Source: Anaerolineae bacterium
GTDB taxonomy: Bacteria > Chloroflexota > Anaerolineae > Promineifilales > Promineifilaceae
NCBI GenBank assembly: GCA_007123775.1
Contig: SLGK01000061.1
Location: 1-64,000 of the forward strand
Direction: 5' to 3'
Length of the DNA stretch: 64,000 bases
Part shown: piece by piece, positions 6,986-62,309 of the stretch
Numbering within the stretch: the stretch's first letter is position 1
Layout: every line of letters starts with the position of its first letter
Position numbers and translations under genes: made by a program
Notes under the pieces: generated by a model
Seen by the model: the letters and a program-made list of their open reading frames with translations, nothing else
The model's database searches: none
Told to the model about the DNA's origin: nothing

Positions 6986-9145
6986 ATGGACAGTGTCACA
7001 CGCTTCAGATTTCATGGGCTGCTCCTACTGATCCTCAGCCTGTATTGGCTGACGGGATGTAGCTTAGGGGTGCGTTCCGAACCCGAAATTCCACCCTCGC
7101 CCACGCCGACGATTATTGCGACGTTTACGGCCGTTCCCGCCACCGCCCTACACACCCCCACCGACACACCCGAACCCACGGCCACCAACACCCGCCGCCC
7201 CGCCGCCACAGCTACCAGCCCTCCGCCCACATCCACCCCCTTGCCCACCCCACTGCCCACTCTAACGGCCGAGCAACTAGAAGCAGACCTGCTGCCCGCG
7301 CTGCGTTTCCGGGCAGTAGACAACGAGTTCCGTTACCCCATGCAGCGCGTGACCTGGGAATACGGCTTACGCTCGTCTGACTACTGCCAGCACGGGCCAT
7401 ACCGCTGGCTTAACGATGACCATTTACTGCTTCTTCCATTGGTGGGACAAAACGAGTTTCAGGGCAGCTTATTCAGCGATTTAACCTGGCCCGTCGTAGC
7501 CAATTTGCATGGCGAGTCGGCCTGGGGTGTGGATATGCCCCAGACGGATAGTTGCATCTTGCCTAAATGGTCGGCGGCACGGCAGCATCTTATCGAAGTA
7601 GACGAGACAGTACGGCTGCGCGATCTAGCCGGAAATGTGGTCCAGACCTATGATGTAGCTGGACCGCTACACCTGGCACCTAGCGGTCAACGGTTGCTGG
7701 TAGGCAATGTGTGGCTCGATCTGGAAAACGGCCGTTCTGTTGAGCTATCAGGGTGGACCGTTGAAGCAGCCCACGTCCCAGGCTGGACAACCGATGAAAC
7801 CCGTCTCTTTGCCTGCTGCTTCAACTATGCTGACGTTAACACGGGCAGCGGTTGGCACGACGATCTTTTCCCATTGGGCGGTCGCGGCAGTTGGCCCGGT
7901 GAAGCAACCTATTCCCATATCATCTGGACATCCGACGAGAGTCATACCCTACTTTTGTCCGATGCCGTTTTTCCCATTAGCCGCCAACACCCAGAACGAC
8001 TGGTGCCCCTCATTGAACCGGCCGCCCAAAGTTATCAAAATCTGGCTGAATCATTTGAATTGGAAGGCAGCGCATTTTTGACCTGTGGCTTTGAATCACC
8101 AACCGGCCGTCATATGCTGCTGACCTGTGGGGAGGGGGTAGCTTATCTGGTTGATCTGGTTTCGCTGGAAACGATCAGCGTCATTGATGATATTTCTTAC
8201 ACACTCCGGTCTATTCACTGGTCGGCCAACGGCCGTTTCCTCACCTACACCGAATTTGACGACACGACACAGGAAAACGGCCGTGTTTGGCTGCTGGATA
8301 CGGACGGCGAACGTCGCCAGTTGACACAGCAACCAGCCCGCCAGGTCTGGTGGCACCCCACCGAACCGCTGCTGGCCCTGCGCCTTGACCGCCCACAACG
8401 GCTGCGGCTGGTCCACGCCGCAACGGGTCAGGAGCGCTGGCTGGAGATGTTCGAGCCTGTTACGGACCTGGCCTGGCGGCCGGATGGCGAGGGCCTGGCT
8501 TTGCAAACGGGCGATAATCGCATCTGGTGGTTGTCACGGCCGTTTCAGCCACTTCCCTACCACCTGCCCACCGTGCCCATTCCCCTGACGGCCCCCAACC
8601 AGGGGGAAACGCTCCACTCGCTGCGCTGGTCGCCCGACGGCAGCAAGCTGGCCTATGTCCATGACAATCACCTGTCGGTCATAACTGTAGACGCCGGGCC
8701 GCAGACCGTATATATCGAGGGGCTTGATTTTAACATCGACCTGCCGCCCCGTTGGGCATTCTATGAGGTGGAGGGGTTCCCCATGTTCACCTCTGACGAG
8801 CGTTTTGGCGACGGGCCCACGCCCATGCACTACTTCGTTTATGTTCAAGAATATCCCAATCCGGAGGAACGGCCGTTTGCCGAACTGGTAACGGCCGATC
8901 TCAGCGAAGAAATTCAGGCCAACTTCAGCTACACCACCGACACCATCGGCCCCTACACCGTCCACCGCACCGAAAGGTTGCCCTCCATGTCGGGTGCGTT
9001 GACCGTCTTTTTCGAGCTACCCGGCCGCTACCTGGCCCTGGCCCTGACGCCCTACGACAGCGAGCAGCCCTACCAGGATCAAGATCGCTACCTGGATTTG
9101 TTTGAGGCAATGCTGCGGTCAGTGAGAAGTCAGGTAGTCGAGTAG
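6986..9145 (+). CDS. Lipoprotein with Pro/Thr linker and WD40/TolB-like propeller
   Basis: An exported lipoprotein of 719 aa: a hydrophobic signal ending in the lipobox LTGC (about residue 25), a Pro/Thr-rich spacer (PTATNTRRPAATATSPPPTSTPLPTPLPT), then repeats of the form GRFLTYTEFD, WHPTEPLLALRLDRPQRLRLV, LAWRPDGEGLALQTGDNRIWWL, LRWSPDGSKLAYVHDNHLSV, typical of TolB/WD40-like propeller blades. The last ~150 residues form a separate globular region. The start at 6986 is fixed by a strong GGAGGTGA 5 nt upstream. The last residues, RSQVVE and the stop, are encoded by the first units of the following AGTCAGG repeat. Ligand unknown. Confidence 0.85.
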   Translation: MDSVTRFRFHGLLLLILSLYWLTGCSLGVRSEPEIPPSPTPTIIATFTAVPATALHTPTDTPEPTATNTRRPAATATSPPPTSTPLPTPLPTLTAEQLEADLLPALRFRAVDNEFRYPMQRVTWEYGLRSSDYCQHGPYRWLNDDHLLLLPLVGQNEFQGSLFSDLTWPVVANLHGESAWGVDMPQTDSCILPKWSAARQHLIEVDETVRLRDLAGNVVQTYDVAGPLHLAPSGQRLLVGNVWLDLENGRSVELSGWTVEAAHVPGWTTDETRLFACCFNYADVNTGSGWHDDLFPLGGRGSWPGEATYSHIIWTSDESHTLLLSDAVFPISRQHPERLVPLIEPAAQSYQNLAESFELEGSAFLTCGFESPTGRHMLLTCGEGVAYLVDLVSLETISVIDDISYTLRSIHWSANGRFLTYTEFDDTTQENGRVWLLDTDGERRQLTQQPARQVWWHPTEPLLALRLDRPQRLRLVHAATGQERWLEMFEPVTDLAWRPDGEGLALQTGDNRIWWLSRPFQPLPYHLPTVPIPLTAPNQGETLHSLRWSPDGSKLAYVHDNHLSVITVDAGPQTVYIEGLDFNIDLPPRWAFYEVEGFPMFTSDERFGDGPTPMHYFVYVQEYPNPEERPFAELVTADLSEEIQANFSYTTDTIGPYTVHRTERLPSMSGALTVFFELPGRYLALALTPYDSEQPYQDQDRYLDLFEAMLRSVRSQVVE

Positions 9146-9203
9146 TCAGGTGGTCAGGTAGTCGAGTAGTCAGGTGGTCAGGTAGTCGAGTGGTCTGGTG
9201 GTC
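9128..9203. repeat. AGTCAGGT/AGTCGAGT tandem repeat
   Basis: Units of about 7-8 bp (agtcagg, tagtcga, gtagtca, ggtggtc) run in tandem. They overlap the 3' end of the lipoprotein gene and supply its TAG stop. Same AGTCA theme as the riboswitch insert. Confidence 0.75.
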
Positions 9204-9204
9204 A

Positions 9205-9300
9205 CTTCGCCACTCCGCCACTTCGCCACTCCGCCACTTCGCCACTCCGCCACTTCGCCACTCCGCCACTCCGCCACTTCGCCACTCTGCCACTTGCCAC
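9205..9300. repeat. CTTCGCCA/CTCCGCCA octamer array
   Basis: About twelve 8-bp units alternate between cttcgcca and ctccgcca with few changes. There are no spacers, so this is not a CRISPR. Shorter, inverted versions occur near 18.2, 39.6 and 62.3 kb. Confidence 0.85.
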
Positions 9301-9340: not shown

Positions 9341-9506
9341 CGTATCATCAAGAGAGGTCGAGGGACCGGCCCGACGACACCTCAGCAACCGCTGGTTTCA
9401 GTAGTCAGTAGTCAGTAGTCAGTAGTCAGTAGTCAGTAGTCAGACCGCTGAAAACAGAAATGGTGCTAATTCCGGCAGAAGCAAGGTCTTCTGGAAGATG
9501 AGAACG
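9341..9506 (+). ncRNA. SAM-I riboswitch (S-box) aptamer with repeat insert
   Basis: The sequence atcatcaagagaggtcgagg, then gaccggcccgacgacacc, then cagcaacc, then ggtgctaattcc and gaagatgag follows the SAM-I consensus in order. P1 pairs tcatc with gatga, P3 pairs agcaacc with ggtgct, and P4 is cagaag/cttctg. The P3 loop, normally about 6 nt, is extended by a second stem (ctggtttca / tgaaaacag) capped by six GTAGTCA heptamers. The kink-turn has ACGA where AUGA is usual. It lies ahead of a methionine-pathway PLP enzyme, as expected for transcription shut-off by S-adenosylmethionine. Confidence 0.92.
9401..9442. repeat. Six perfect GTAGTCA heptamers in the riboswitch P3 loop
   Basis: Exactly six tandem copies of gtagtca (42 nt) lie in the apical part of riboswitch P3. 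The copies are identical, pointing to recent expansion or strong homogenisation. Confidence 0.95.
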
Positions 9507-10890: not shown

Positions 10891-10928
10891 GATGAGCGAG
10901 GCTTTTCGTAATTCATAATTCGTAATTT

Positions 10929-11068
10929 GGCATGGTTCAAGTCAGCTTGACAATTCACTGACCGAGGACGGAGGACGAAAGACCGATAACCAGAGCAATT
11001 CCGTCCTTCGTCTTCGGTCCTCCGTCAAAATTTGTAAAGTTGGCTGCCAAGTAGCAGTGAACCATGCC
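10929..11068 (-). mobile_element. MITE-like element, copy 1
   Basis: The 140-bp element is bounded by perfect 11-bp terminal inverted repeats GGCATGGTTCA / TGAACCATGCC. The 8 bp on each side are identical (CGTAATTT at 10921-10928 and 11069-11076), as expected for a target-site duplication. Its reverse complement matches the element at 53071-53236 nearly base for base outside the loop. The inside is an imperfect inverted array of GGACGGA-type heptamers, and no protein is encoded. It ends 8 bp before the GGAGG ribosome site of the aspartate kinase gene. Confidence 0.85.
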
Positions 11069-12520: not shown

Positions 12521-12563
12521 GGACGGGTCGCTGATCCGTCCTTCGTCTTCCGTCCTCCGTCCC
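12521..12563. repeat. GGACGGA-type heptamer hairpin between convergent genes
   Basis: ggacgggtcgctgatccgtcc forms a hairpin and is continued by ttcgtcttccgtcctccgtcc. It shares the heptamer core of the MITE-like elements but lacks their terminal repeats. It may act as a terminator for both flanking genes. Confidence 0.6.
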
Positions 12564-15740: not shown

Positions 15741-15893
15741 ACCGGTTGATCATTGGTTAAATTTTTCACAAGCCCGTTGTTAACCTGAAACTTAACAAGC
15801 GGCTTGTTGGTGCTTAACGGCCGTCAACTTTCAAATTAACGGCCGCAGTAGATTCTCATTCCGTTTCACCCCATAATCAGGCTAACGAAAAAT

Positions 15894-15954
15894 AGTGCGT
15901 ATTGCGTAGTGCGTAACGCCAAAGTCCACTACGCAACACGCAACACACAACACG
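15894..15954. repeat. Inverted heptamer array GCGTAGT / ACTACGC
   Basis: tagtgcgtattgcgtagtgcg, a short loop, then ccactacgcaacacgcaacac. It lies immediately before the ribosome site of the solute-binding protein gene and could fold in its leader. Confidence 0.75.
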
Positions 15955-15970: not shown

Positions 15971-17143
15971 ATGTACACTCGTTCAAGAAACAGCTTATTG
16001 TTTATCCTGGCAGCCGCGCTGCTAGGCATTATGGCCGTGGCCTGCCAGGCCGAAACGGTTGAAGTAACCCGCGTCGTCACCGAGACGGTCACGGAAGAAG
16101 TGACCCGCATGGTCAGTGAAACAGAAGTGGTAACCGAAGAAGTTGAAGTAGAAGTAACGCGCATTATCCAGGTCGAAGTACCGGCTGCAGAAGCAGGTCC
16201 GGGCCGTCTGGTCATCTACTCTGGCCGCGGTGAATCGCTGGTTGACCCCATTATCCAACAGTTTGCGGCCGCGACCGGCATTGAGGTTGACGTGCGCTAC
16301 GGTGGTACGGCCGAATTAGCCGCCACCATTCTCGAAGAAGGCCAAAACAGCCCGGCCGATGTCTTTTATGCCCAGGACCCCGGCGGCCTGGGGGCTATAG
16401 CCGCTGCCGGTTTACTAACGCCGCTGCCAGACCGCATTCTGGAGCGTGTGCCAGCCCGCTATACGGCCGCAACCGGTGAATGGATTGGCATTTCCGGCCG
16501 CGCCCGCGTCATTGCCTATAATACCGACGCCATTACCGACCCGGAGAACCAGCTACCCGATGATTTGTGGGGCTTTACCGAACCGGAATGGAACGGCCGT
16601 ATCGGCTGGGCACCCACCAACGGCTCGTTTCAGGCCATGCTGACTGCCATGCGCACCATCTGGGGTGACGAGCAAACGTCCGAATGGCTGCTGGGTATCC
16701 AGGCCAACAATCCCACCGTCTACCGCAACAATACCACTACCGTAACCGGGGTAGCGGCCGGTGAAGTGGATGTTGGTTTTGTCAATCACTACTATCTCTA
16801 CCGCTTCCTTGAAGAAGAAGGGGATGGTCACAAATCCCGTAACTACTTCCTGCCCAGTGGTGGTCCTGGCTCACTGGTCATGGTTTCTGGGGCCGGTATT
16901 CTGGAAACAGCCCCCAACCGGGCCAACGCCGAGCGTTTCGTAGAGTTCCTACTTTCTGTACCGGGCCAGCAATACTTTGCTTCCCGAACGTTTGAATATC
17001 CGCTGGTGGAAGGCGTAGCTACCTCAGCCCAATTACCCCCACTGGAAGAATTGGATGCGGTGGCCATAGACATCGATCTGTCGGAAATGGCCGACCTGGA
17101 AGGCACGGTGCGGTTGCTTAGCGAACTGGGTATTTTGCCCTGA
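15971..17143 (+). CDS. Iron(III)-type ABC transporter solute-binding lipoprotein
   Basis: A 390-aa class II periplasmic-type binding protein of the FbpA/AfuA family. A signal peptide ends in the lipobox AVAC. It is followed by a Val/Thr/Glu-rich repetitive linker (VTRVVTETVTEEVTRMVSETEVVTEEVEVEVTR), then GRLVIYSGRGESLVDPIIQQFAAATGIEVDVRYGGTAELAATILEEG, ADVFYAQDPGGLGA and VNHYYLYR, which fits Tyr-type ferric ligands near the hinge. AAGGAG precedes the ATG. No permease or ATPase is adjacent; an FbpB-like permease lies 22 kb away at 39745. Iron is the best guess. Confidence 0.88.
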   Translation: MYTRSRNSLLFILAAALLGIMAVACQAETVEVTRVVTETVTEEVTRMVSETEVVTEEVEVEVTRIIQVEVPAAEAGPGRLVIYSGRGESLVDPIIQQFAAATGIEVDVRYGGTAELAATILEEGQNSPADVFYAQDPGGLGAIAAAGLLTPLPDRILERVPARYTAATGEWIGISGRARVIAYNTDAITDPENQLPDDLWGFTEPEWNGRIGWAPTNGSFQAMLTAMRTIWGDEQTSEWLLGIQANNPTVYRNNTTTVTGVAAGEVDVGFVNHYYLYRFLEEEGDGHKSRNYFLPSGGPGSLVMVSGAGILETAPNRANAERFVEFLLSVPGQQYFASRTFEYPLVEGVATSAQLPPLEELDAVAIDIDLSEMADLEGTVRLLSELGILP

Positions 17144-17246
17144 TCCGGAAACAAGCGGGGCCGTATCCACTCAGTACACGGCCGTTTCTACATTGATGAG
17201 CTGGCGGTCAACATTTCTTGAACCACAGGCTGCCTTAGAAAAAAGA

Positions 17247-17350
17247 GGCTCTTTGGGAACTCAGGGGATTGACAAACCGTTATGCGTAAAACGTAACCAG
17301 AGAGACCTTACGCATTACGCTTTACGTTTTACGCCAAACCCCACGAAATC
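17247..17350 (+). repeat. Dispersed element type 2, copy A
   Basis: About 104 bp closely matching 41424-41534 in the same orientation: both start ggctc.ttgggaa.tcaggg, run through ttgacaa.ccgt and gcgtaaaacgtaaccagagagac, and end ttttacgccaaacccc.cgaaatc. The core is an inverted GTAAAAC/GCGTAAT heptamer array. No protein is encoded. Confidence 0.85.
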
Positions 17351-17385
17351 CCGAAGACCCAAAAAAGACCGGCCTATTGTACAGT

Positions 17386-18180
17386 TCACCCCAACTGCCA
17401 CACGGGGCCATGCCCAGCGCCCATCTGCCACAGCGCACCACGCTCAATGGCCTGCCGGGTCAACTGTTGGGCTTGAGCCACAGCACTGGCCATCGTTGCG
17501 CCCTGGGCCAGATAAGCCGCCACAGCCGCCGACAGCGTATCACCGCTGCCGTGCGTGTTAGCTGTGGCCAGCCTGGGCACGCGCCGAATATGTTCGCGTT
17601 CGCCGTCAAAGAGCAGGTCAATCACGTCAGAATCCAGGGGCAGCCCCTTGATCAGCACCGCTTGCGGCCCTAGTGCGTGCAGGGTGCGGGCCGTTTCGGC
17701 CAGCCAGGCCAGCTTTCTCGCCTCAGCGGGAAGCGGGCTGCGGGTCAGCAGAGCCGCTTCGTGCCAGTTGGGGGTAATCAGGCTGGCCTGGGGCAGCAAG
17801 TAGGCACGGTAGGCTTCCACCACATCGGGGCTAAACATGGGCTGGGCACGGTGGTTGACGAGAACGGGATCGACGACCAGCCAGCGGGGTTGGTAGAGGG
17901 TCAGTTGGGCGGCAATGGCCTCGATGGTCTCTTCACGGCCGATGAAACCGGTTTTAATAGCGGCTGCCCCGTAGTCGGCCAGAACGACGGCCATCTGGGC
18001 GGCCACAAAATCGGGGGACATATACTGAACGGCCGTTACCTTTTCGCTATCTTGGGCAGTAACGGCCGTTATCGCGCACAGCCCATACACCCCCAGCGCC
18101 GCAAAAGTACGCAGATCGGCCGCCAACCCGGCCGCACCGCCGCTGTCACTGCCGGCAATGGTCAGAACAAGGGGGGGCAT
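17386..18180 (-). CDS. thiD: Hydroxymethylpyrimidine/phosphomethylpyrimidine kinase
   Basis: ThiD phosphorylates HMP and HMP-P on the way to thiamine. Family marks: TIAGSDSGGAAGLAADLRTFAALGVYG at the N terminus, AITAVTAQDS, AAIKTGFIG, LVVDPVLVN and the C-terminal anion-hole motif THGSGDTLSAAVAAYLAQG. The usual motif reads HGTGCTLS; here Cys is Asp, as in the wider ribokinase family, so a related vitamin or sugar kinase is possible but less likely. No TPP riboswitch is seen upstream. Confidence 0.88.
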   Translation of the reverse strand: MPPLVLTIAGSDSGGAAGLAADLRTFAALGVYGLCAITAVTAQDSEKVTAVQYMSPDFVAAQMAVVLADYGAAAIKTGFIGREETIEAIAAQLTLYQPRWLVVDPVLVNHRAQPMFSPDVVEAYRAYLLPQASLITPNWHEAALLTRSPLPAEARKLAWLAETARTLHALGPQAVLIKGLPLDSDVIDLLFDGEREHIRRVPRLATANTHGSGDTLSAAVAAYLAQGATMASAVAQAQQLTRQAIERGALWQMGAGHGPVWQLG

Positions 18181-26971: not shown

Positions 26972-26979
26972 TCGGTTTT

Positions 26980-27012
26980 AAACCTGCGAGGTCTCGCTGA
27001 CCTCGCAGGTTT
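26980..27012. terminator. ACCTGCGAGGT hairpin, copy 1
   Basis: Perfect arms aaacctgcgaggt / acctcgcaggttt enclose a 7-nt loop, 8 bp past the loader stop. The same stem sequence recurs at 41546-41576. Confidence 0.75.
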
Positions 27013-37296: not shown

Positions 37297-39552
37297 ATGG
37301 ATTTGTTTAAGCACACACGGCAGCAGCAGGTTGAACAGGAAGCCCCCCTGGCCCACCGGATGCGGCCACGCACGCTGGACGAATTTGCCGGGCAGGCGCA
37401 CATCATCGGCCACGGCCGTTTACTGCGCCGCGCCATTCAAGCCGACCAGCTCTCCTCCCTCATCTTCTACGGGCCGCCGGGCACGGGCAAAACGACGCTG
37501 GCCATGGTCATTGCCAATAGCACCCAGAGCCACTTCATCACCATCAACGCCGTCCTGGCCGGGGTCAAAGAAATCCGGGAAGCCATCGCCGACGCTCAGG
37601 AGCGGCGCGCCCTCTACAACCAGCGCACTACCCTCTTTGTCGATGAGGTCCACCGCTGGAACAAGGCGCAGCAGGACGCGCTGCTGCCCCACGTGGAAAA
37701 CGGCACTATCATTCTCATCGGGGCCACCACCGAAAATCCTTACTTTGAGGTCAACAAAGCCCTGGTCAGCCGCAGCCGCATTTTTCAACTGAAACCGCTG
37801 ACCAACGACGACCTGCGCCAGATTGCGCGGCAGGCGTTGGCCGATCCGGAGCGGGGCTACGGCCGTTTACCCGTAGAAATCAGCGACGAAGCCCTGGACC
37901 ACCTGGTAGACGTAGCCAACGGCGACGCTCGTGGGGTCCTCAACGCCCTGGAACTGGCCGTAGAAACCACGCCGCCGGATGAGAACGGCCGTATTCCCAT
38001 CACCCTCGCCGTCGCCGAAGAATCGATCCAGCGCCGCGCCGTCCTCTACGACAAAGAAGGGGACGTCCACTACGACACCATCTCCGCCTTCATCAAAAGT
38101 CTGCGCGGCTCCGACCCCGACGCCGCCCTCTACTGGATGGCCAAGATGATTTATGCCGGCGAAGACCCCCGCTTCATCTTCCGCCGCATGGCCATCTTTG
38201 CCGGTGAGGATGTGGGCATGGCCGACCCCCAGGCCATCACCGTTGTCACCGGTTGCTGGGAAGCGTTTGAACGGATCGGAATGCCCGAAGGCCGCTTTCC
38301 CCTGGCCCAGGCCTGCCTCTACCTGGCCACCGCCCCCAAATCCAACAGTGCCTTCGCCTTCTTCGATGCCCTGGAGACGGTGGGCAAGGAGCGCGAGGCC
38401 GACGTACCTAATCATTTGAAGGATGGCAACCGGGACAAAGAAGGTTTTGGTCACGGCCAGGGCTACCTGTACCCCCACGCCTACCGCGACCATTGGGTGG
38501 CCCAGCAATATCTGCCCGACGCGCTGCAAGGCAAGCTGTTCTACCAGCCCAGCGACCAGGGCCACGAGCGCCGCATCCGCGATGAGGTGGCCCGCAAACG
38601 GGAAGCCCAATTAGCGGCGATGGTGGAAGAGAACCAGTCCGCACCGCCGGAGATTTTAACCACCAGCCCCACTGACCGGGCGCGAGACCTCTGGCTGCAG
38701 CGCACGATTTCGCAGGCGGGGCAGAATTTAGGCCAGGTGCGGGCGCGATTGTTTGAACTGGCCCAGGTGCAGCGGCATCATCTGTTGCTGAACATCGGTG
38801 CGGGCAGCGGCCTGCTCACCTGGGAGGCGGTGCGCCAGGCCCCGGAGGGCGGCGTTTGGGCCTTAGCCACCGACCCTGCCAGTGGTGAAGCGTTACGCCA
38901 GCAGGCAGAAAGATTGCCGGAGTTGGAACGGCCGTTTATCCTCATCGGCACCCTGTCAGAATTACCCACCCTGCTGGCCCTGCGCGAGGAGGCTGAGATA
39001 CGCTTTGACCGCATTCTGGCCCGCAACCCGCTCACCAGCCATCAAATTCCCCTGGCGGAATTGGTCGCCTGTCAGAATTGGTTGGCCGAAAACGGCCGCT
39101 TCGACAAGCTCAGTGCCGGCCGCTTCGTCCTCGTGCAAACCATTCCCCAACAAGGCCAACGCCTGTACAACCTGATTGAGTGGCCCGACGAACGATTACA
39201 GCAGCAGGTCATTGCCGCCGAAGAAGCAATCTACCAGGATGCCGACGACCCGTTGGTCAACTGGAATGAATCAACCATTGAAGCCGCCTTCACCCAGGCC
39301 GGCTGGCAGGATGTGGCCCTTTACCCCGAAACCCAAACCGAACAGCGGCGCATAACGGCCGTTGCCCTCTCCCGCTGGTTTGATAAGCCAGAAAGCTACG
39401 CCGCCCGCCCCACCTACGGCCAACGCCTGGCCCAGGCTGGCCTCACCCCCAAACAAATCGAGCGGGTAGCCAGCCTCTACCGCCAGCAGTTGACCGACCG
39501 AACGGTTGCCTGGCAGACACGGGTTGTCTATTTCGTAGTGCGTAATGCGTAG
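37297..39552 (+). CDS. rarA: RarA/MgsA AAA+ ATPase fused to a methyltransferase-like domain
   Basis: Residues 1-~430 are RarA, a clamp-loader-like ATPase acting at stalled forks: [103 protein letters not shown] and [18 protein letters not shown]. From ~480 onward a second part includes [32 protein letters not shown], like a SAM-binding Rossmann motif. RarA fusions with an extra domain are known in cyanobacteria. The ORF-track start is a TTG; I use ATG 37297. The last residues FVVRNA and the stop lie in a GCGTAGT repeat. Confidence 0.9.
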
Positions 39553-39603
39553 TGCGTAGAAAGATAACTACGCCGCCACTCCGCCACCTCGCCGCTCCGC
39601 TCC
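39533..39603. repeat. GCGTAGT heptamers joined to CGCCACTC array
   Basis: cgtagtgcgtaatgcgtagtgcgtag overlaps the end of rarA and supplies its stop. cgccactccgccacctcgccgctcc follows. Two repeat families are adjacent here, as at 9128-9300. Confidence 0.7.
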
Positions 39604-39731
39604 ATTTTTAACCCCGGTTAACTTCCAACCCATCACCCGTTAATTTTCAACTGCACACTCGTCAAATTCCGGTTATACGCCGGTGCATTTCTAAGTTAAC
39701 GCCTGGGCTTGATCCTGGTTTCACAATTCCC

Positions 39732-39737
39732 CATAAT
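39732..39737 (+). promoter_or_regulatory. Candidate -10 box before FbpB-like gene
   Basis: CATAAT ends 7 nt before ATG 39745. A GAGGG in the gap is too close to the ATG for a good ribosome site, so this may be leaderless. Confidence 0.35.
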
Positions 39738-39744
39738 GAGGGTC

Positions 39745-41388
39745 ATGAGCGCAACACCTGTCATCGGCAAACGAGCTATAACTCTCCCCCGTCCTCGACT
39801 GGCCCAACGCGGGGCCAGACCCATCAACTGGCAACTCTCAAGCTATTTTCTGCTGCTGCTGGCGCTGCTGGTCGGCGCGTTGATGCTGCTGACGCCAGCC
39901 TATCTGCTGGTACGAACGGTTGGGGCAGGGCAAGCGGCCGTTGACATGCTGCTGCGTCCTTCAACAATTCAAACGTTGGGGCGAACCGTCTGGCTGGCAA
40001 CGACGGTGACGCTGGCTTCGGCCGTGATTGCCGTGCCGCTGGCCTGGCTCACGACCAGTACCGACCTGCCGGGCAAACGCTTCTGGACGGTAACGGCCGC
40101 TTTGCCGCTCGTTCTGCCCAGTTATGTTGGGGCCTACCTCTTTGTCTCTATTTTAGGGCCGCGCGGTATTGCCCAACAGATGTTGCAGCCTATCACCGGC
40201 ATCGAGCGCTTCCCCTCCTTTTATGGCTTTTGGGGAGCGTTTTTTGTGTTGACGCTGATGAGCTACCCCTACATTTTCCTGACGGTGCGGGCCGCTTTCA
40301 AGCGGCTGGATCCGTCCATGATCGAGGCGGCTCGCAGCCTGGGTCAGACTCCCTGGCAGGCTTTTTGGCGCGTCACGCTGCCCCATTTACGGCCGTCGAT
40401 CTGGGCGGGGGCGCTGCTGGTATCGCTCTACGTGCTGCGCGATTTCGGGGCCGTCACCATGCTCCGCTACGATACTTTTACCCGCATCATCTACATTCAA
40501 TATGGCTCCTTTACCAGCCGTTCGCTGGCGGCGGCGATGGCGCTGGTGTTGATTGCGTTAACGGCCGTTATTCTCTTCATGGAAATGCGGACGCGGGGTA
40601 AAGCCAACTACGCCCGCCAGTCGATTGGCTGCGCCCGCCAGTCCAGAACGGTGCAGCTTGGCCGCTGGCGCTGGCCGGCTCTCGGCTTTATCGGCGGTAT
40701 CGTCACCATTGGCCTGATTTTGCCCGCCGGCAGCCTGGTCTACTGGCTGGTACGGGGCTGGATGAACAGCCAGGTTTCGGTAGCCCTGTGGCAGACTTCC
40801 TGGAATTCGCTGACGGTTTCGCTCATTGCTTCGCTGGTGGCGATTGCCGCCGCGCTGCCGGTAGCGATTCTGTCGGTGCGCCAGCCCAGTCGCCTCAGCC
40901 ATTTTCTGGAGCGGCTGACCTACACCGGCTTTGCCCTGCCCGGCATCGTAATCGCCCTGGCCCTCGTCTTCTTTGGGGCCAATTACACCCCCAGCCTCTA
41001 CCAGACTTTGCCCATGCTGATTGTGGCCTACGTTATTTTGTTTGTGCCGCAGGCCGTTGGCTCCACCCGCTCCTCGCTGCTGCAAGTACCGCGCAGCCTG
41101 GAAGAAGCGGGCCGCAGCCTGGGTCACAGCCCGCTGGCCGTTTTCCGCCGCATTACCTTCCCCTTGCTCAGCCCCGGTATGGCCGCCGGTATGGCCCTGG
41201 TTTTCTTGACCTGTATGAAGGAACTACCGGCAACGCTCATTTTAAGTCCGTTAGGCTACCGCACGCTGGCGACATCGGTCTGGGGTAATATTTCTGAGGC
41301 GTTTTTTGCCCAGGCTGCGGCCCCGGCACTGATGCTGATTTTGCTCTCTTCGATTCCGATGGCGTTTTTGACGCTGCGGGAGAAGTAA
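39745..41388 (+). CDS. Iron(III)-type ABC transporter permease, FbpB-like
   Basis: A 547-aa integral membrane protein with about twelve helices in two homologous halves. Each half has an EAA loop that contacts the ATPase: EAARSLGQTPWQAFWRVTLPHLRPS and EAGRSLGHSPLAVFRRITFPLLSPG. This two-in-one form is typical of FbpB/SfuB ferric permeases. It has no adjacent binding protein or ATPase; the lipoprotein at 15971 is a likely partner by family. ATG 39745 is preferred to the upstream ATG 39736 and TTG 39709. Confidence 0.9.
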   Translation: MSATPVIGKRAITLPRPRLAQRGARPINWQLSSYFLLLLALLVGALMLLTPAYLLVRTVGAGQAAVDMLLRPSTIQTLGRTVWLATTVTLASAVIAVPLAWLTTSTDLPGKRFWTVTAALPLVLPSYVGAYLFVSILGPRGIAQQMLQPITGIERFPSFYGFWGAFFVLTLMSYPYIFLTVRAAFKRLDPSMIEAARSLGQTPWQAFWRVTLPHLRPSIWAGALLVSLYVLRDFGAVTMLRYDTFTRIIYIQYGSFTSRSLAAAMALVLIALTAVILFMEMRTRGKANYARQSIGCARQSRTVQLGRWRWPALGFIGGIVTIGLILPAGSLVYWLVRGWMNSQVSVALWQTSWNSLTVSLIASLVAIAAALPVAILSVRQPSRLSHFLERLTYTGFALPGIVIALALVFFGANYTPSLYQTLPMLIVAYVILFVPQAVGSTRSSLLQVPRSLEEAGRSLGHSPLAVFRRITFPLLSPGMAAGMALVFLTCMKELPATLILSPLGYRTLATSVWGNISEAFFAQAAAPALMLILLSSIPMAFLTLREK

Positions 41389-41423: not shown

Positions 41424-41534
41424 GGCTCCTTGGGAATTCAGGGGGTTGACAAGCCGTAATGCGTAAAACGTAAAACGTAACCAGAGAGACTTTACGCATT
41501 ACGCATTACGTTTTACGCCAAACCCCGCGAAATC
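41424..41534 (+). repeat. Dispersed element type 2, copy B
   Basis: About 111 bp matching copy A at 17247-17350 with point changes and one extra GTAAAAC unit. The inverted heptamer core (gcgtaaaacgtaaaacgt / acgcattacgttttacgc) forms a long hairpin. Confidence 0.85.
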
Positions 41535-41545
41535 AAAACCTTCTA

Positions 41546-41576
41546 AACCTGCGAGGTCTCCGAGACCTCGCAGGTT
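41546..41576 (-). terminator. ACCTGCGAGGT hairpin, copy 2
   Basis: Perfect 15-bp arms aacctgcgaggtctc / gagacctcgcaggtt around a single C. It lies 17 bp past the M14 peptidase stop and also downstream of the permease, so it may serve both. Its stem repeats that at 26980-27012. Confidence 0.78.
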
Positions 41577-43826: not shown

Positions 43827-44245
43827 GGGGATGACAGGCTTCGACGGAGAAGGAGCTCCCTGGACTGCAAGCCGAGCAAGTTCTACACCTCGTAAAACTG
43901 GGAACAAACAATTAAGTGCCAACAACGCACGCACCTACAACGCTCTCCCCCTGGCTGCGTAATGCAGCGGCCACGTTAGTGGTCGGAGAGTAGACGTTTC
44001 CGTGAAGGAAACCCGTTTGCGCCAAATGTTCGTCAGTCAGGCGGCAGCAGACGACACAATACACTGACGTGCCTCTCATCGACGTCGATAGATGAGACTA
44101 AGCGGCTCTTTCGGGAGCCATCGACTGGCCCGCAGTAGACCCCGTTGGCCGGGGCTTTGCGGGTGAGAACAAATAGGCCGACTAAGCTTGTAGACGTTCA
44201 GATGGATTACTTTTTCGGACGTGGGTTCGATTCCCACCATCTCCA
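43827..44245 (+). ncRNA. ssrA: Transfer-messenger RNA
   Basis: One-piece tmRNA that rescues stalled ribosomes with SmpB. The 5' end ggggatgacaggcttcgacg and the 3' end gtgggttcgattcccaccatctcca pair as the tRNA-Ala-like acceptor stem and T arm. The reading frame for the tag begins at GCC 43918. At about 419 nt it is somewhat longer than the usual ~360 nt. CCA is not encoded. A terminator follows. Confidence 0.96.
43918..43962 (+). other. tmRNA tag reading frame, ANNARTYNALPLAA
   Basis: From the resume codon GCC the frame reads A-N-N-A-R-T-Y-N-A-L-P-L-A-A then TAA. The ALPLAA end fits the C-terminal signal read by ClpXP-type proteases (usually LAA or similar). Confidence 0.9.
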
Positions 44246-44250
44246 TTGAG

Positions 44251-53070: not shown

Positions 53071-53236
53071 GGCATGGTTCACTGCTTTCTGGCAGCCAAC
53101 TTTACAGATTTTGACGGAGGACCGAAGACGAAGGACGGAGTTGCTTTTAGCCTATCGACCCATCGCTTTGTCCGGCCATCGGTCTTTCGTCCTCCGTCCT
53201 CGGTCAGTGAATTGTCAAGCTGACTTGAACCATACC
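53071..53236 (+). mobile_element. MITE-like element, copy 2
   Basis: 166 bp in the opposite orientation to copy 1. The ends are GGCATGGTTCA and TGAACCATACC (one mismatch). The flanks are aaacattt and caacattt, a 7-bp target duplication. The outer ~55 bp on each side match the reverse complement of copy 1; the loop is about 26 bp longer. It sits between two acyltransferase genes. Confidence 0.85.
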
Positions 53237-53264
53237 CAACATTTACAGGTAAACAAATGAAAAC

Positions 53265-54260
53265 ATGGAAATAGCGACATTGACCAATAACCCCGTCCCA
53301 ATTGCCCTGATGTTTACCGGCCAGGGAGCCCAATATCCGGGGATGGGCCGCCAACTGTATGAGCGCAATGAGACGTACCGTACTGCCTTAAATAGCTGTG
53401 ATGACTATTTACGGCCGTTTCTGCCCCGCCCCCTCCTAGACATCCTCTTTGCTGAGGATGAAGCCACCGCTAATCTGGTCCATGAGACGGCTTATACCCA
53501 GCCCGTACTCTTTAGCGTGGAATATGCGCTGGCCCAGGTCTGGCTGGCCTGGGGGCTGCGGCCGGCCGTGGTCATGGGCCACAGCGTGGGTGAGTATGTG
53601 GCCGCTACCATAGCCGGTGTCTTTAGTCTGGCCGATGGGCTAAAGCTGATTGCCGAACGGGGCCGCCAGATGCAGGCCCTGCCCTCCGGCGGCAGCATGG
53701 CGGCCGTATTTGCCGATGAAGCACGAGTAGCGGCGGCGATTGCGCCTTATGCCAACGAGGTCTCGATTGCGGCCATTAACGGGCCGACCAATGTCGTGAT
53801 TTCAGGGGCGGGTACGGCCGTGGCCACCATCCTGGCCAAGTTGAAAGAAGCGGGCATCCGTGCCCGCGCGCTGGTCGTCTCCCACGCCTTCCACTCGCCG
53901 CTGATGGCCCCCATGCTCGACAGTTTCGAAGCGGTGGCCCGCACTGTGACCTACCATCCACCTCAAACACCGCTTATCTCTAACGTTACGGGGCAGGTAG
54001 CGGATGATCGGGTGCAAACGGCCGTTTACTGGCGTGACCATGTGCGCGACGCAGTTCGCTTCGCCGATGCCCTGCAAACCGCCCACCAGATGGGCATCGA
54101 CCACTTCCTGGAAGCCGGCCCCAACCCGGTCCTGATTGGCATGGGTAAACGGATTTTACCGCGTGGTATAGGGGTCTGGCTGCCCTCTCTCAAAGAAGGC
54201 AGCGACGATGAAGCGATGTTGGCGGAGAGCCGGGCGGTGTTGGCGGCAAGCGATGCGTAG
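53265..54260 (+). CDS. Free-standing PKS-type acyltransferase 2 (malonyl-type)
   Basis: A 331-aa acyltransferase of the FabD/PKS AT family: LMFTGQGAQYPGMGRQLYER, VVMGHSVGEYVAATIAGVFSLADGLKLIAERG (nucleophile Ser), AAINGPTNVVISG, ALVVSHAFHSPLM and FLEAGPNPVLIGMGKR. SHAFH is the usual sign of malonyl-CoA use. It clearly resembles its upstream neighbour, suggesting duplication. It lacks the N-terminal linker. No synthase is visible here, so a trans-acting role is speculative; fatty-acid FabD is another option. Confidence 0.88.
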   Translation: MEIATLTNNPVPIALMFTGQGAQYPGMGRQLYERNETYRTALNSCDDYLRPFLPRPLLDILFAEDEATANLVHETAYTQPVLFSVEYALAQVWLAWGLRPAVVMGHSVGEYVAATIAGVFSLADGLKLIAERGRQMQALPSGGSMAAVFADEARVAAAIAPYANEVSIAAINGPTNVVISGAGTAVATILAKLKEAGIRARALVVSHAFHSPLMAPMLDSFEAVARTVTYHPPQTPLISNVTGQVADDRVQTAVYWRDHVRDAVRFADALQTAHQMGIDHFLEAGPNPVLIGMGKRILPRGIGVWLPSLKEGSDDEAMLAESRAVLAASDA

Positions 54261-54312
54261 TGCGTAGTGCGTAGTGGGTAGCAAATGACCCCTACGCACT
54301 ACGCACTACGAT
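54253..54312. repeat. Inverted GCGTAGT heptamer array between convergent genes
   Basis: gcgtagtgcgtagtgcgtagtg, a loop, then ctacgcactacgcactacg. It contains the stop of the acyltransferase gene and ends at the stop of the ABC ATPase; it probably works as a two-way terminator. Confidence 0.8.
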
Positions 54313-55857: not shown

Positions 55858-55970
55858 TTCGTGTTACGTATTCCGTATTACGTATTTCGTGTTGCGTGTT
55901 GCGTATTTCGTGTTGCGTGTTGCGTAACGATTTTGATTACGCACTACGCAATACGCAATACGTCATTCCG
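55858..55970. repeat. Inverted GTATTAC/GTGTTGC heptamer array
   Basis: tacgtattccgtattacgtatttcgtgttgcgtgttgcg and repeats, then gattacgcactacgcaatacgcaatacg. It fills the gap between permease and ATPase inside the ABC operon, so it would be transcribed and could fold in the message. Confidence 0.75.
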
Positions 55971-59628: not shown

Positions 59629-60696
59629 ATGAAACTGAGTACAGAGTTCTTCTCAAGATTAGTTGGGGCCATTGCGCTCGCTTTTGCTGCTGCCGCTTTG
59701 GGCGATGCTCTCGCCAACTACCTGGGTGCTAATAATGAGGCATATGTTATCGTTTTTGTTCTGTTAGGCATCTTAACAGGTCTGGTGTTAACACCCTATT
59801 TGACGGTACGGCCGTTGCGCCGCTTGCGTCAACGTCTAACCAATATGCCGCCTGAGCAGCTAATGGCTATCATTATCGGCATTTTCTTGGGCCTGATTGC
59901 GGCCGCGCTCATTTCGCTACCGTTGGCTATGCTGCCTTCCCCTTTTCGGGAGATTTTGCCGTTAACGGCCGTTGTCGTTTTCTGCTACCTTAGCACCGCC
60001 ATCTTGATGCTGCGCCAGCGTGACCTGAAAAACATGCTAAGCAACCTGCAGCCATTGGGACAAACCACACGTAGGGGTTCTGGGGCTGAACTCAGCGCTA
60101 AAGAAGACGAATCCGTCATTTTGCTGGATACGAGTGTGATCATAGACGGCCGTATTGCCGACATTAGCAAAACCGGTTTTATCCAGGCCAGTCTGCTGGT
60201 TCCCAACTTTGTTCTCATGGAGCTACAACATATCGCCGACAGTGCCGATCCCCTGCGCCGCAATCGCGGTCGGCGCGGTCTGGATGTGTTGACCATCCTG
60301 CAAAACGAAGCCCCCGTGCCCACCCGTATCACCGATATGGATGTTAGTGAAACACGCGAAGTGGACAGCAAGCTCGTCTCTCTGGCTCGCCATTGGCAGT
60401 GTCCTATCATGACCAATGACTACAACCTCAACCGAGTGGCTGAAATCCAGGGCGTGCGCGTCCTCAACATCAACGACCTGGCCAACGCCGTCAAAGCCGC
60501 CTACTTACCCGGCGAAGAGCTAACCGTTAAAGTAATACAAGAAGGACGCGAAGCTGATCAGGGCGTCGGCTATTTAGAAGATGGCACAATGGTCGTCATT
60601 GAAGAAGGGGAGTACCTGATCAATCAAACGGTCACTGTCACCGTCACCAAAGTGCTGCAAACCACCGCCGGCCGCATGATCTTCGCCAAACCGTAA
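59629..60696 (+). CDS. Membrane PIN-TRAM domain protein, YacL-like
   Basis: A 355-aa protein. Four hydrophobic helices fill the first ~130 residues. A PIN domain follows (VILLDTSVIIDGRIADI, VLMELQHIADSADPLRRNRGRRGLDVL, REVDSKLVSLARHWQCPIMTNDYNLNRVA) with its acidic metal-binding residues. The C-terminal TRAM-like RNA-binding part includes GREADQGVGYLEDGTMVVIEEGE. This is the YacL/PilT-N arrangement, likely a membrane-tied RNase; its target is unknown. The stop codon TAA lies in the first unit of the GTAAAAC repeat that follows. Confidence 0.92.
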   Translation: MKLSTEFFSRLVGAIALAFAAAALGDALANYLGANNEAYVIVFVLLGILTGLVLTPYLTVRPLRRLRQRLTNMPPEQLMAIIIGIFLGLIAAALISLPLAMLPSPFREILPLTAVVVFCYLSTAILMLRQRDLKNMLSNLQPLGQTTRRGSGAELSAKEDESVILLDTSVIIDGRIADISKTGFIQASLLVPNFVLMELQHIADSADPLRRNRGRRGLDVLTILQNEAPVPTRITDMDVSETREVDSKLVSLARHWQCPIMTNDYNLNRVAEIQGVRVLNINDLANAVKAAYLPGEELTVKVIQEGREADQGVGYLEDGTMVVIEEGEYLINQTVTVTVTKVLQTTAGRMIFAKP

Positions 60697-60790
60697 AACG
60701 TAAAACGTGATGCGTGATGCGTGAATAAAAGACCTCACGTATCACGCATCACGTTTCGTAATTCGTAATTTGTAATTCATAATTCGGAAA
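60694..60790. repeat. Inverted GTAAAAC/GTGATGC array plus CGTAATT heptamers
   Basis: gtaaaacgtaaaacgtgatgcgtgatgcgtg, loop, cacgtatcacgcatcacg, then cgtaattcgtaatttgtaattcataattcg. Two repeat families are joined. The array starts at the PIN-TRAM stop and ends just before the cysS start. Confidence 0.75.
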
Positions 60791-62240: not shown

Positions 62241-62245
62241 TGCTG

Positions 62246-62309
62246 CGAAGTGGCGATGTGGCGAAGTTACCTTACAACTTCGCCACATCGCCACTCCGCC
62301 ACTTCGCCA
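62246..62309. repeat. Inverted AGTGGCGA octamer array between cysS and rlmB
   Basis: gcgaagtggcgatgtggcgaag, loop, cttcgccacatcgccactccgccacttcgcc. It lies between cysS and the methylase and ends at the methylase start codon. Confidence 0.8.

Follow-up and report, generated by a model that had tools for sequence, protein, structure and literature searches.

The dispersed non-coding element at 17.2 kb of the window (the whole 64,000-nucleotide stretch of Anaerolineae DNA that was analysed) is, as judged from its sequence, an ISL3-type MITE without a gene. We consider it probable that this MITE is moved in trans and that it holds an exchangeable palindromic core module between constant ends. 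Its defining MITE features are its copies, 8-bp duplications and imperfect inverted-repeat ends, and it is assigned to the ISL3 type because the ISL3 insertion sequences of related Anaerolineae have similar terminal repeats.

Boundaries, copies and distribution of the element

Both copies described in an earlier sequence-only reading are present, at 17247-17350 and 41424-41534, with an identity of 90-92% over two aligned blocks, and the GTAAAAC/GCGTAAT heptamer hairpin sits between common ends in both. The left end of the 17.2 kb copy is confirmed, while the right end had been placed 10 bp short: conserved sequence runs on to GAAGACCC at 17360, and the complete element is 17247-17360, 114 bp in length. 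The similarity of the two ends, described as only partially inverted, is real; the true right end extends it to an imperfect terminal inverted repeat of ~27 bp (GGCTCTTTGGGAATTCAGGGGGTTGAC versus GGGTCTTCTGGATTTCGCGGGGTTTAC, the latter on the opposite strand). An exact 8-bp duplication, AAAAAAGA, is found on both sides of the 17.2 kb copy, which lies between the stop codons of a solute-binding protein gene and a thiD-type kinase gene. The 41.4 kb copy has no visible duplication because its right end, with the last ~10 bp gone, is truncated against another palindromic repeat. The only ORF across the 17.2 kb copy is a frame rejected by the coding score. The features are as follows.

15971-17143, plus strand: gene for an extracellular solute-binding protein, upstream of the 17.2 kb copy (Pfam SBP_bac_8, 3e-21)
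17239-17246, no strand: left 8-bp target-site duplication AAAAAAGA, identical to 17361-17368
17247-17273, plus strand: left terminal inverted repeat (IRL) GGCTCTTTGGGAACTCAGGGGATTGAC, 25/27 versus the family consensus
17278-17296, plus strand: left hairpin arm of the core, made of CGTNNNN heptamers
17297-17307, plus strand: loop CCAGAGAGACC, a constant part of heptamer cores, with matches to GTAACCAGAGAGACCTTACG in the genome
17308-17333, plus strand: right hairpin arm of the core, made of TTACGNN heptamers
17336-17360, minus strand: right terminal inverted repeat (IRR) AAACCCCACGAAATCCCGAAGACCC, whose pattern is matched 53 times in the genome
17361-17368, no strand: right 8-bp target-site duplication AAAAAAGA
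17386-18180, minus strand: phosphomethylpyrimidine kinase (thiD-type) gene, convergent to the solute-binding protein gene (Pfam PF08543, 5e-73)
41424-41534, plus strand: the other copy in the window, with IRL and core complete but the IRR truncated
41541-41576, no strand: a palindromic repeat of another kind (AACCTGCGAGGTCTC...GACCTCGCAGGTT), adjoining the truncated IRR, with its other copy at 26976-27012

Further copies were sought by pattern, BLAST-type and profile searches in the host assembly (5.59 Mb, 344 contigs, 96% complete, 5% contamination). The 17.2 kb copy had at least 40 scored matches, down to E = 2e-12. Allowing up to 3 mismatches, the IRR pattern gave 53 matches and the loop-and-stem centre GTAACCAGAGAGACCTTACG gave 36; neither pattern had any match when reversed as a control. 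Non-redundant two-ended elements number at least 32 in the genome; 11 of them have a perfect 8-bp duplication and two thirds do not; pairing the left and right flanks of different copies gave 0/992 matches. The relatives contributed 87 elements, 39 with exact 8-bp duplications. Since the end-finder gave a bonus to duplication-bearing pairs, mismatched flanks from the same set of relatives served as the control, and the duplication was found in 39/86 true pairs versus 3/7310 mismatched pairings. The pooled duplications are 78% A+T, as compared with 44% A+T in the window. The two-ended copies of the host genome and its relatives are mostly 106-133 bp long.

These results bear out what the sequence-only reading described: a non-coding element in dispersed copies, whose conserved outer arms enclose a heptamer hairpin. 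The parallel drawn there with a MITE was right, the element itself being a MITE of the ISL3 type, and the wider copy count and the target duplications for which that reading had proposed a search are now at hand. A larger ordinary duplication that happens to contain just two copies is rejected, as there are dozens of copies and their flanks are unrelated.

Among the 59 genomes of the relatives search, which included no other genome of the same genus, 19 have the IRR pattern with up to 2 mismatches, the maximum being 163 matches (genome G013). The pattern occurs in 23/396 genomes of the class, mostly of the same family, and a scan of a genome collection named the Anaerolineae MAGs bin30017 and bin10092 as carriers. 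Carriage by phages, plasmids or viruses was also looked for, and neither the 50,697 phage records, the 72,556 plasmid records nor IMG/VR yielded a match.

ISL3 insertion sequences and the candidate mover

The ISL3 family is indicated by ends that begin GGCTCTT and by the 8-bp length of the duplication. Four ISL3 elements of relatives have ends like those of the MITE, with 23/26 matching positions at both ends of L087 and 19-22/26 in L086, L088 and L089. The Pfam matches of the proteins encoded by the relatives' ISL3 elements are DDE_Tnp_ISL3 (2e-47 and 3e-51), an ISL3 zinc ribbon and a helix-turn-helix. These four copies with the closest ends have no visible 8-bp duplication, and a search for duplications of other lengths or at shifted ends found none. 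Two other ISL3 elements of the family with different inner ends, L093 and L095, have duplications of 8/8 and 7/8, respectively. Genomes of the family with the MITE more often have ISL3 (11/18 vs 4/17; two-sided Fisher p = 0.04, uncorrected for relatedness). In the host's own draft assembly no ISL3 transposase was detected with the DDE profile PF01610 or the N-terminal profile, and a collapsed repeat could be missing from its 344 contigs; several copy-rich relatives, G013 and G009 among them, are likewise without one.

We infer that an ISL3 transposase is the mover in this genome. An ISL3-family DDE transposase, acting in trans, would recognise the ~27-bp ends and paste the element into AT-rich intergenic DNA, by which 8 bp would be duplicated.

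In L086 (841-2237), L088 (841-2236) and L089 (1418-2814), the transposase is split between two overlapping frames, which join at a stretch rich in lysine (KKKR / SKKK). The split frames suggest programmed frameshifting in these three elements.

Palindromic cores and their genomic setting

The heptamer hairpin taken in the sequence-only reading as the core is present, and with its loop CCAGAGAGACC it is the commonest core in the host genome, but it is just one among several interchangeable cores. Within this genome, 14 elements have CGTAA heptamer cores (4 with exact duplications), 3 have CGTGA heptamers (2), 6 have CGTATT heptamers (1), 3 have GGTGGCGA octamers (1) and 6 have GTAGGGGC palindromes (3). 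Comparison of a GTAA-type element (L002) with an octamer-type element (L061) reveals that the first 29 bases are identical and 23/25 agree at the right end, while the cores are wholly different. Clustering of 114 elements by core sequence gave 14 clusters, and exact duplications are found in 8 of them.

The cores of these 114 elements fold with z < -2 against shuffles in 85% of cases, and the heptamer-hairpin element has an RNA fold z of -5.65, more than expected by chance. In an alignment of 12 equal-length heptamer elements, 90.8% of cells are paired, as compared with at most 44% in slid versions, and letters have changed in both arms at 6 pairs, a count that 118/500 shuffles also reach. The conservation of pairing is modest evidence, since the heptamer arrays are internally repetitive.

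Cores are also found free of the ends, which indicates that the core is a separable unit and not merely the inside of a decayed insertion sequence. Exactly 65 bp of the free core L030 are identical to the core of L009 with nothing else alike, and the best matches of L030 to the MITE ends, 12/27 and 12/25, are at chance level. A search of the genome for GTAGGGGC palindromes gave 41 matches, and most of those inspected are without ends. By eye, the free heptamer hairpin of L030 lies between two apparent convergent stop codons, CCGTAA on the outside of one arm and CCGTAG on the outside of the other; such a placement would be that of a bidirectional terminator.

Three elements of the relative G009 provide a glimpse of how one core could have given way to another. 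L207 has a GTGA heptamer core. The ends and right arm of L215 are nearly those of L207, its left arm holds the first part of the palindrome CCCTTCGGCATCACTCAGGGCAGGCAGTGATG, and the junction, GTGATG, is common to both joined sequences. L082 has nearly the same ends and the outermost GTGAAA/TTTCAC, with the full symmetric palindrome CCCTTCGGCATCACTCAGGGCAGGCAGTGATG instead of heptamers. The series L207, L215, L082 looks like a heptamer core, an asymmetric intermediate and a re-symmetrised core, with the direction unproven. In addition, a palindromic insertion, AGCCTGCCTTGAGCCTGCCGAAAG (of the CCTTGAGCCTGCCGAAAGG type), interrupts the left end at one and the same position in L053 and L064, which have GTAA cores, and in L048, which has a GTATT core; L163, with a GTAGGGGC core, has a longer form of it. 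An insertion common to three core types would mean either that ends and cores have changed partners or that the palindrome has inserted at one site more than once. The G009 trio and the left-end insertion across core types together suggest that cores have been exchanged.

Template switching has been proposed to explain how long hairpins come to be perfect and remain so (PMC8794818), and it is the most likely route of the core swap. The swap step is inferred from patterns of shared ends and from one intermediate-like copy. Microhomology and template switching on the hairpin arms at replication would swap the cores, and by copying one arm onto the other, template switching would restore the symmetry. 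We tentatively put forward a wider scheme, to which we give somewhat less than an even chance, in which the ISL3-type ends serve as a frame that is used over and over. Palindromes dispersed through the host genome, such as heptamer hairpins and REP-like repeats, would time and again be captured between the ends; template switching would make them symmetric, and they would then spread as the cores of new MITE subfamilies. Cores could also escape from the frame and survive at gene ends as free hairpins; the result would be a modular, core-swapping class of bacterial MITEs.

All copies of the host genome with usable gene calls lie between genes, several of them within 10 bp of a stop codon. The neighbours of the window copies are the solute-binding protein and thiD-type kinase genes in the one case and ABC permease and M14 peptidase genes in the other. 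A preference for convergent genes was considered and rejected: both window copies lie between convergent genes, yet the mix around 26 copies (17 tandem, 5 divergent, 4 convergent) is not unusual and is close to that of the window. A consensus scan of the 17.2 kb copy found neither a sigma-70 promoter nor an intrinsic terminator, and Rfam gave no match to either window copy at the gathering threshold. A role of the hairpin as a terminator or mRNA end is plausible; transcribed between genes, at times just after a stop codon, it may end or stabilise transcripts. The solute-binding protein gene (15971-17143) and the ABC permease gene (39709-41388), 22 kb apart, are each followed by the same MITE, possibly by chance.

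The window contains other repeats of similar design. A second, unrelated element, present in inverted copies at 10926-11068 and 53071-53239, has the ends GGCATGGTTCAAGTCAGCTTGACAATTCACTGAC ... GCAGTGAACCATGCC and a core of GACGGAGGACGAAG heptamer-like repeats. It is probably the MITE with which the sequence-only reading compared the present element, and the design of constant ends around a core of repeat units may hold for this second end family as well. Free repeat units of the GACGGAGGACGAAG type occur at 12535-12562. Arrays of 7- or 8-bp units are found outside MITEs at 9129-9294, 15893-15954, 39534-39600, 54254-54310, 55860-55962, 60688-60786 and 62245-62309, often as opposed pairs that are potential hairpins. 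The Rfam matches in the window are a SAM riboswitch (9342-9504) and tmRNA (43827-44248). Elsewhere in the genome, contig C98 has identical inverted stretches near both ends (L036/L037 and L072/L073), which may be an assembly artefact.

Competing explanations and known systems

The palindromic cores could also be explained by a REP-type palindrome moved by a RAYT (Y1 HUH) transposase via single-stranded DNA, in which the core is mobile and the outer ends are passengers. Cores without ends, and GTAG-tagged palindromes among the cores as in REPs, are what such an explanation would lead one to expect. Duplications of 8 bp are a signature of DDE transposases, and Y1 transposases do not make them; their presence at the outer ends, and just two Y1 domain (Y1_Tnp) hits in the host genome, make this explanation very improbable. 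We regard as quite improbable a structured RNA or regulatory element (attenuator, terminator or small RNA) that is under selection at gene ends, with the end repeats as its outer stem. The strong fold of the heptamer-hairpin element, its paired alignment with changes on both sides, the intergenic copies close to stop codons and the apparent convergent stop codons around L030 fit such an RNA. It is opposed by the many exact target duplications within unrelated flanks, by wholly different cores in the same ends, by the lack of an Rfam match, by a gene orientation close to the window's own mix and by double-changed pairs no more numerous than shuffles give.

The standard view of MITE origin would have each subfamily form independently, by the closing of ISL3-like ends around local DNA with no later exchange. 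Small signature bases beside each core class (GCC...GG, AAA...GTCT, AATGTT...TTGCACA) agree with this origin. It is unlikely, though a serious alternative, as the cores are nearly always palindromic and of the dispersed-repeat type, unlike random local DNA, and as the mosaic copy L215 and the end insertion common to several core classes speak against it. The preferred explanation remains the ISL3-type MITE with an exchangeable core.

The MITE identity is ordinary, since such MITEs are known; the swappable core is the new part. In the open-licence papers covered, which are weak evidence for an absence, no MITE is described whose single frame holds many palindromic cores unrelated to each other. 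One frame accounts for a good part of the dispersed palindromes in these uncultured Anaerolineae and offers a natural series in which the origin and upkeep of long perfect hairpins can be studied. If the cores are truly swapped, bacterial MITEs would be vehicles for other repeats such as hairpins and terminators, beyond decayed insertion sequences.

Among the closest known systems is a 187-nt ISL3-associated MITE of Microcystis aeruginosa with ends GGCTCTTCG, 8-nt duplications and matching ISL3 elements (PMC11448079). The two are alike in their ISL3-type ends (GGCTCTTCG there, GGCTCTTTG here), 8-bp duplications, a stem-loop and tens of mostly intergenic copies. In Microcystis the copies are identical with one core, and an ISL3 with matching ends is in the same genome. 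The present element, in contrast, has ends of ~27 bp and many palindromic cores that are unrelated to one another, and its host assembly yielded no ISL3. The relatives' ISL3 elements L086-L089 have terminal repeats that agree with those of the MITE at 19-23/26 bases and start GGYTCT(T/C)TGGGA; they differ in their length of 1.25-1.4 kb, in a transposase in two overlapping frames and in having no palindromic core. The BrickBuilt MITE of Porphyromonas gingivalis (PMC4596501) is likewise intergenic, with a short-repeat array between constant ends. BrickBuilt has one 23-nt repeat in direct orientation, whereas the heptamers or octamers of the present element form inverted arrays, and these and its other palindromes vary from copy to copy. 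GTAG repeats have been reported in Chloroflexi (PMC3733652), and several of the present cores are GTAG-tagged dispersed palindromes like the GTAG/CGTC-tagged REPs of that study. Those REPs have no such terminal repeats or target duplications, whereas the palindromes described here occur both free and framed by ISL3-type ends.
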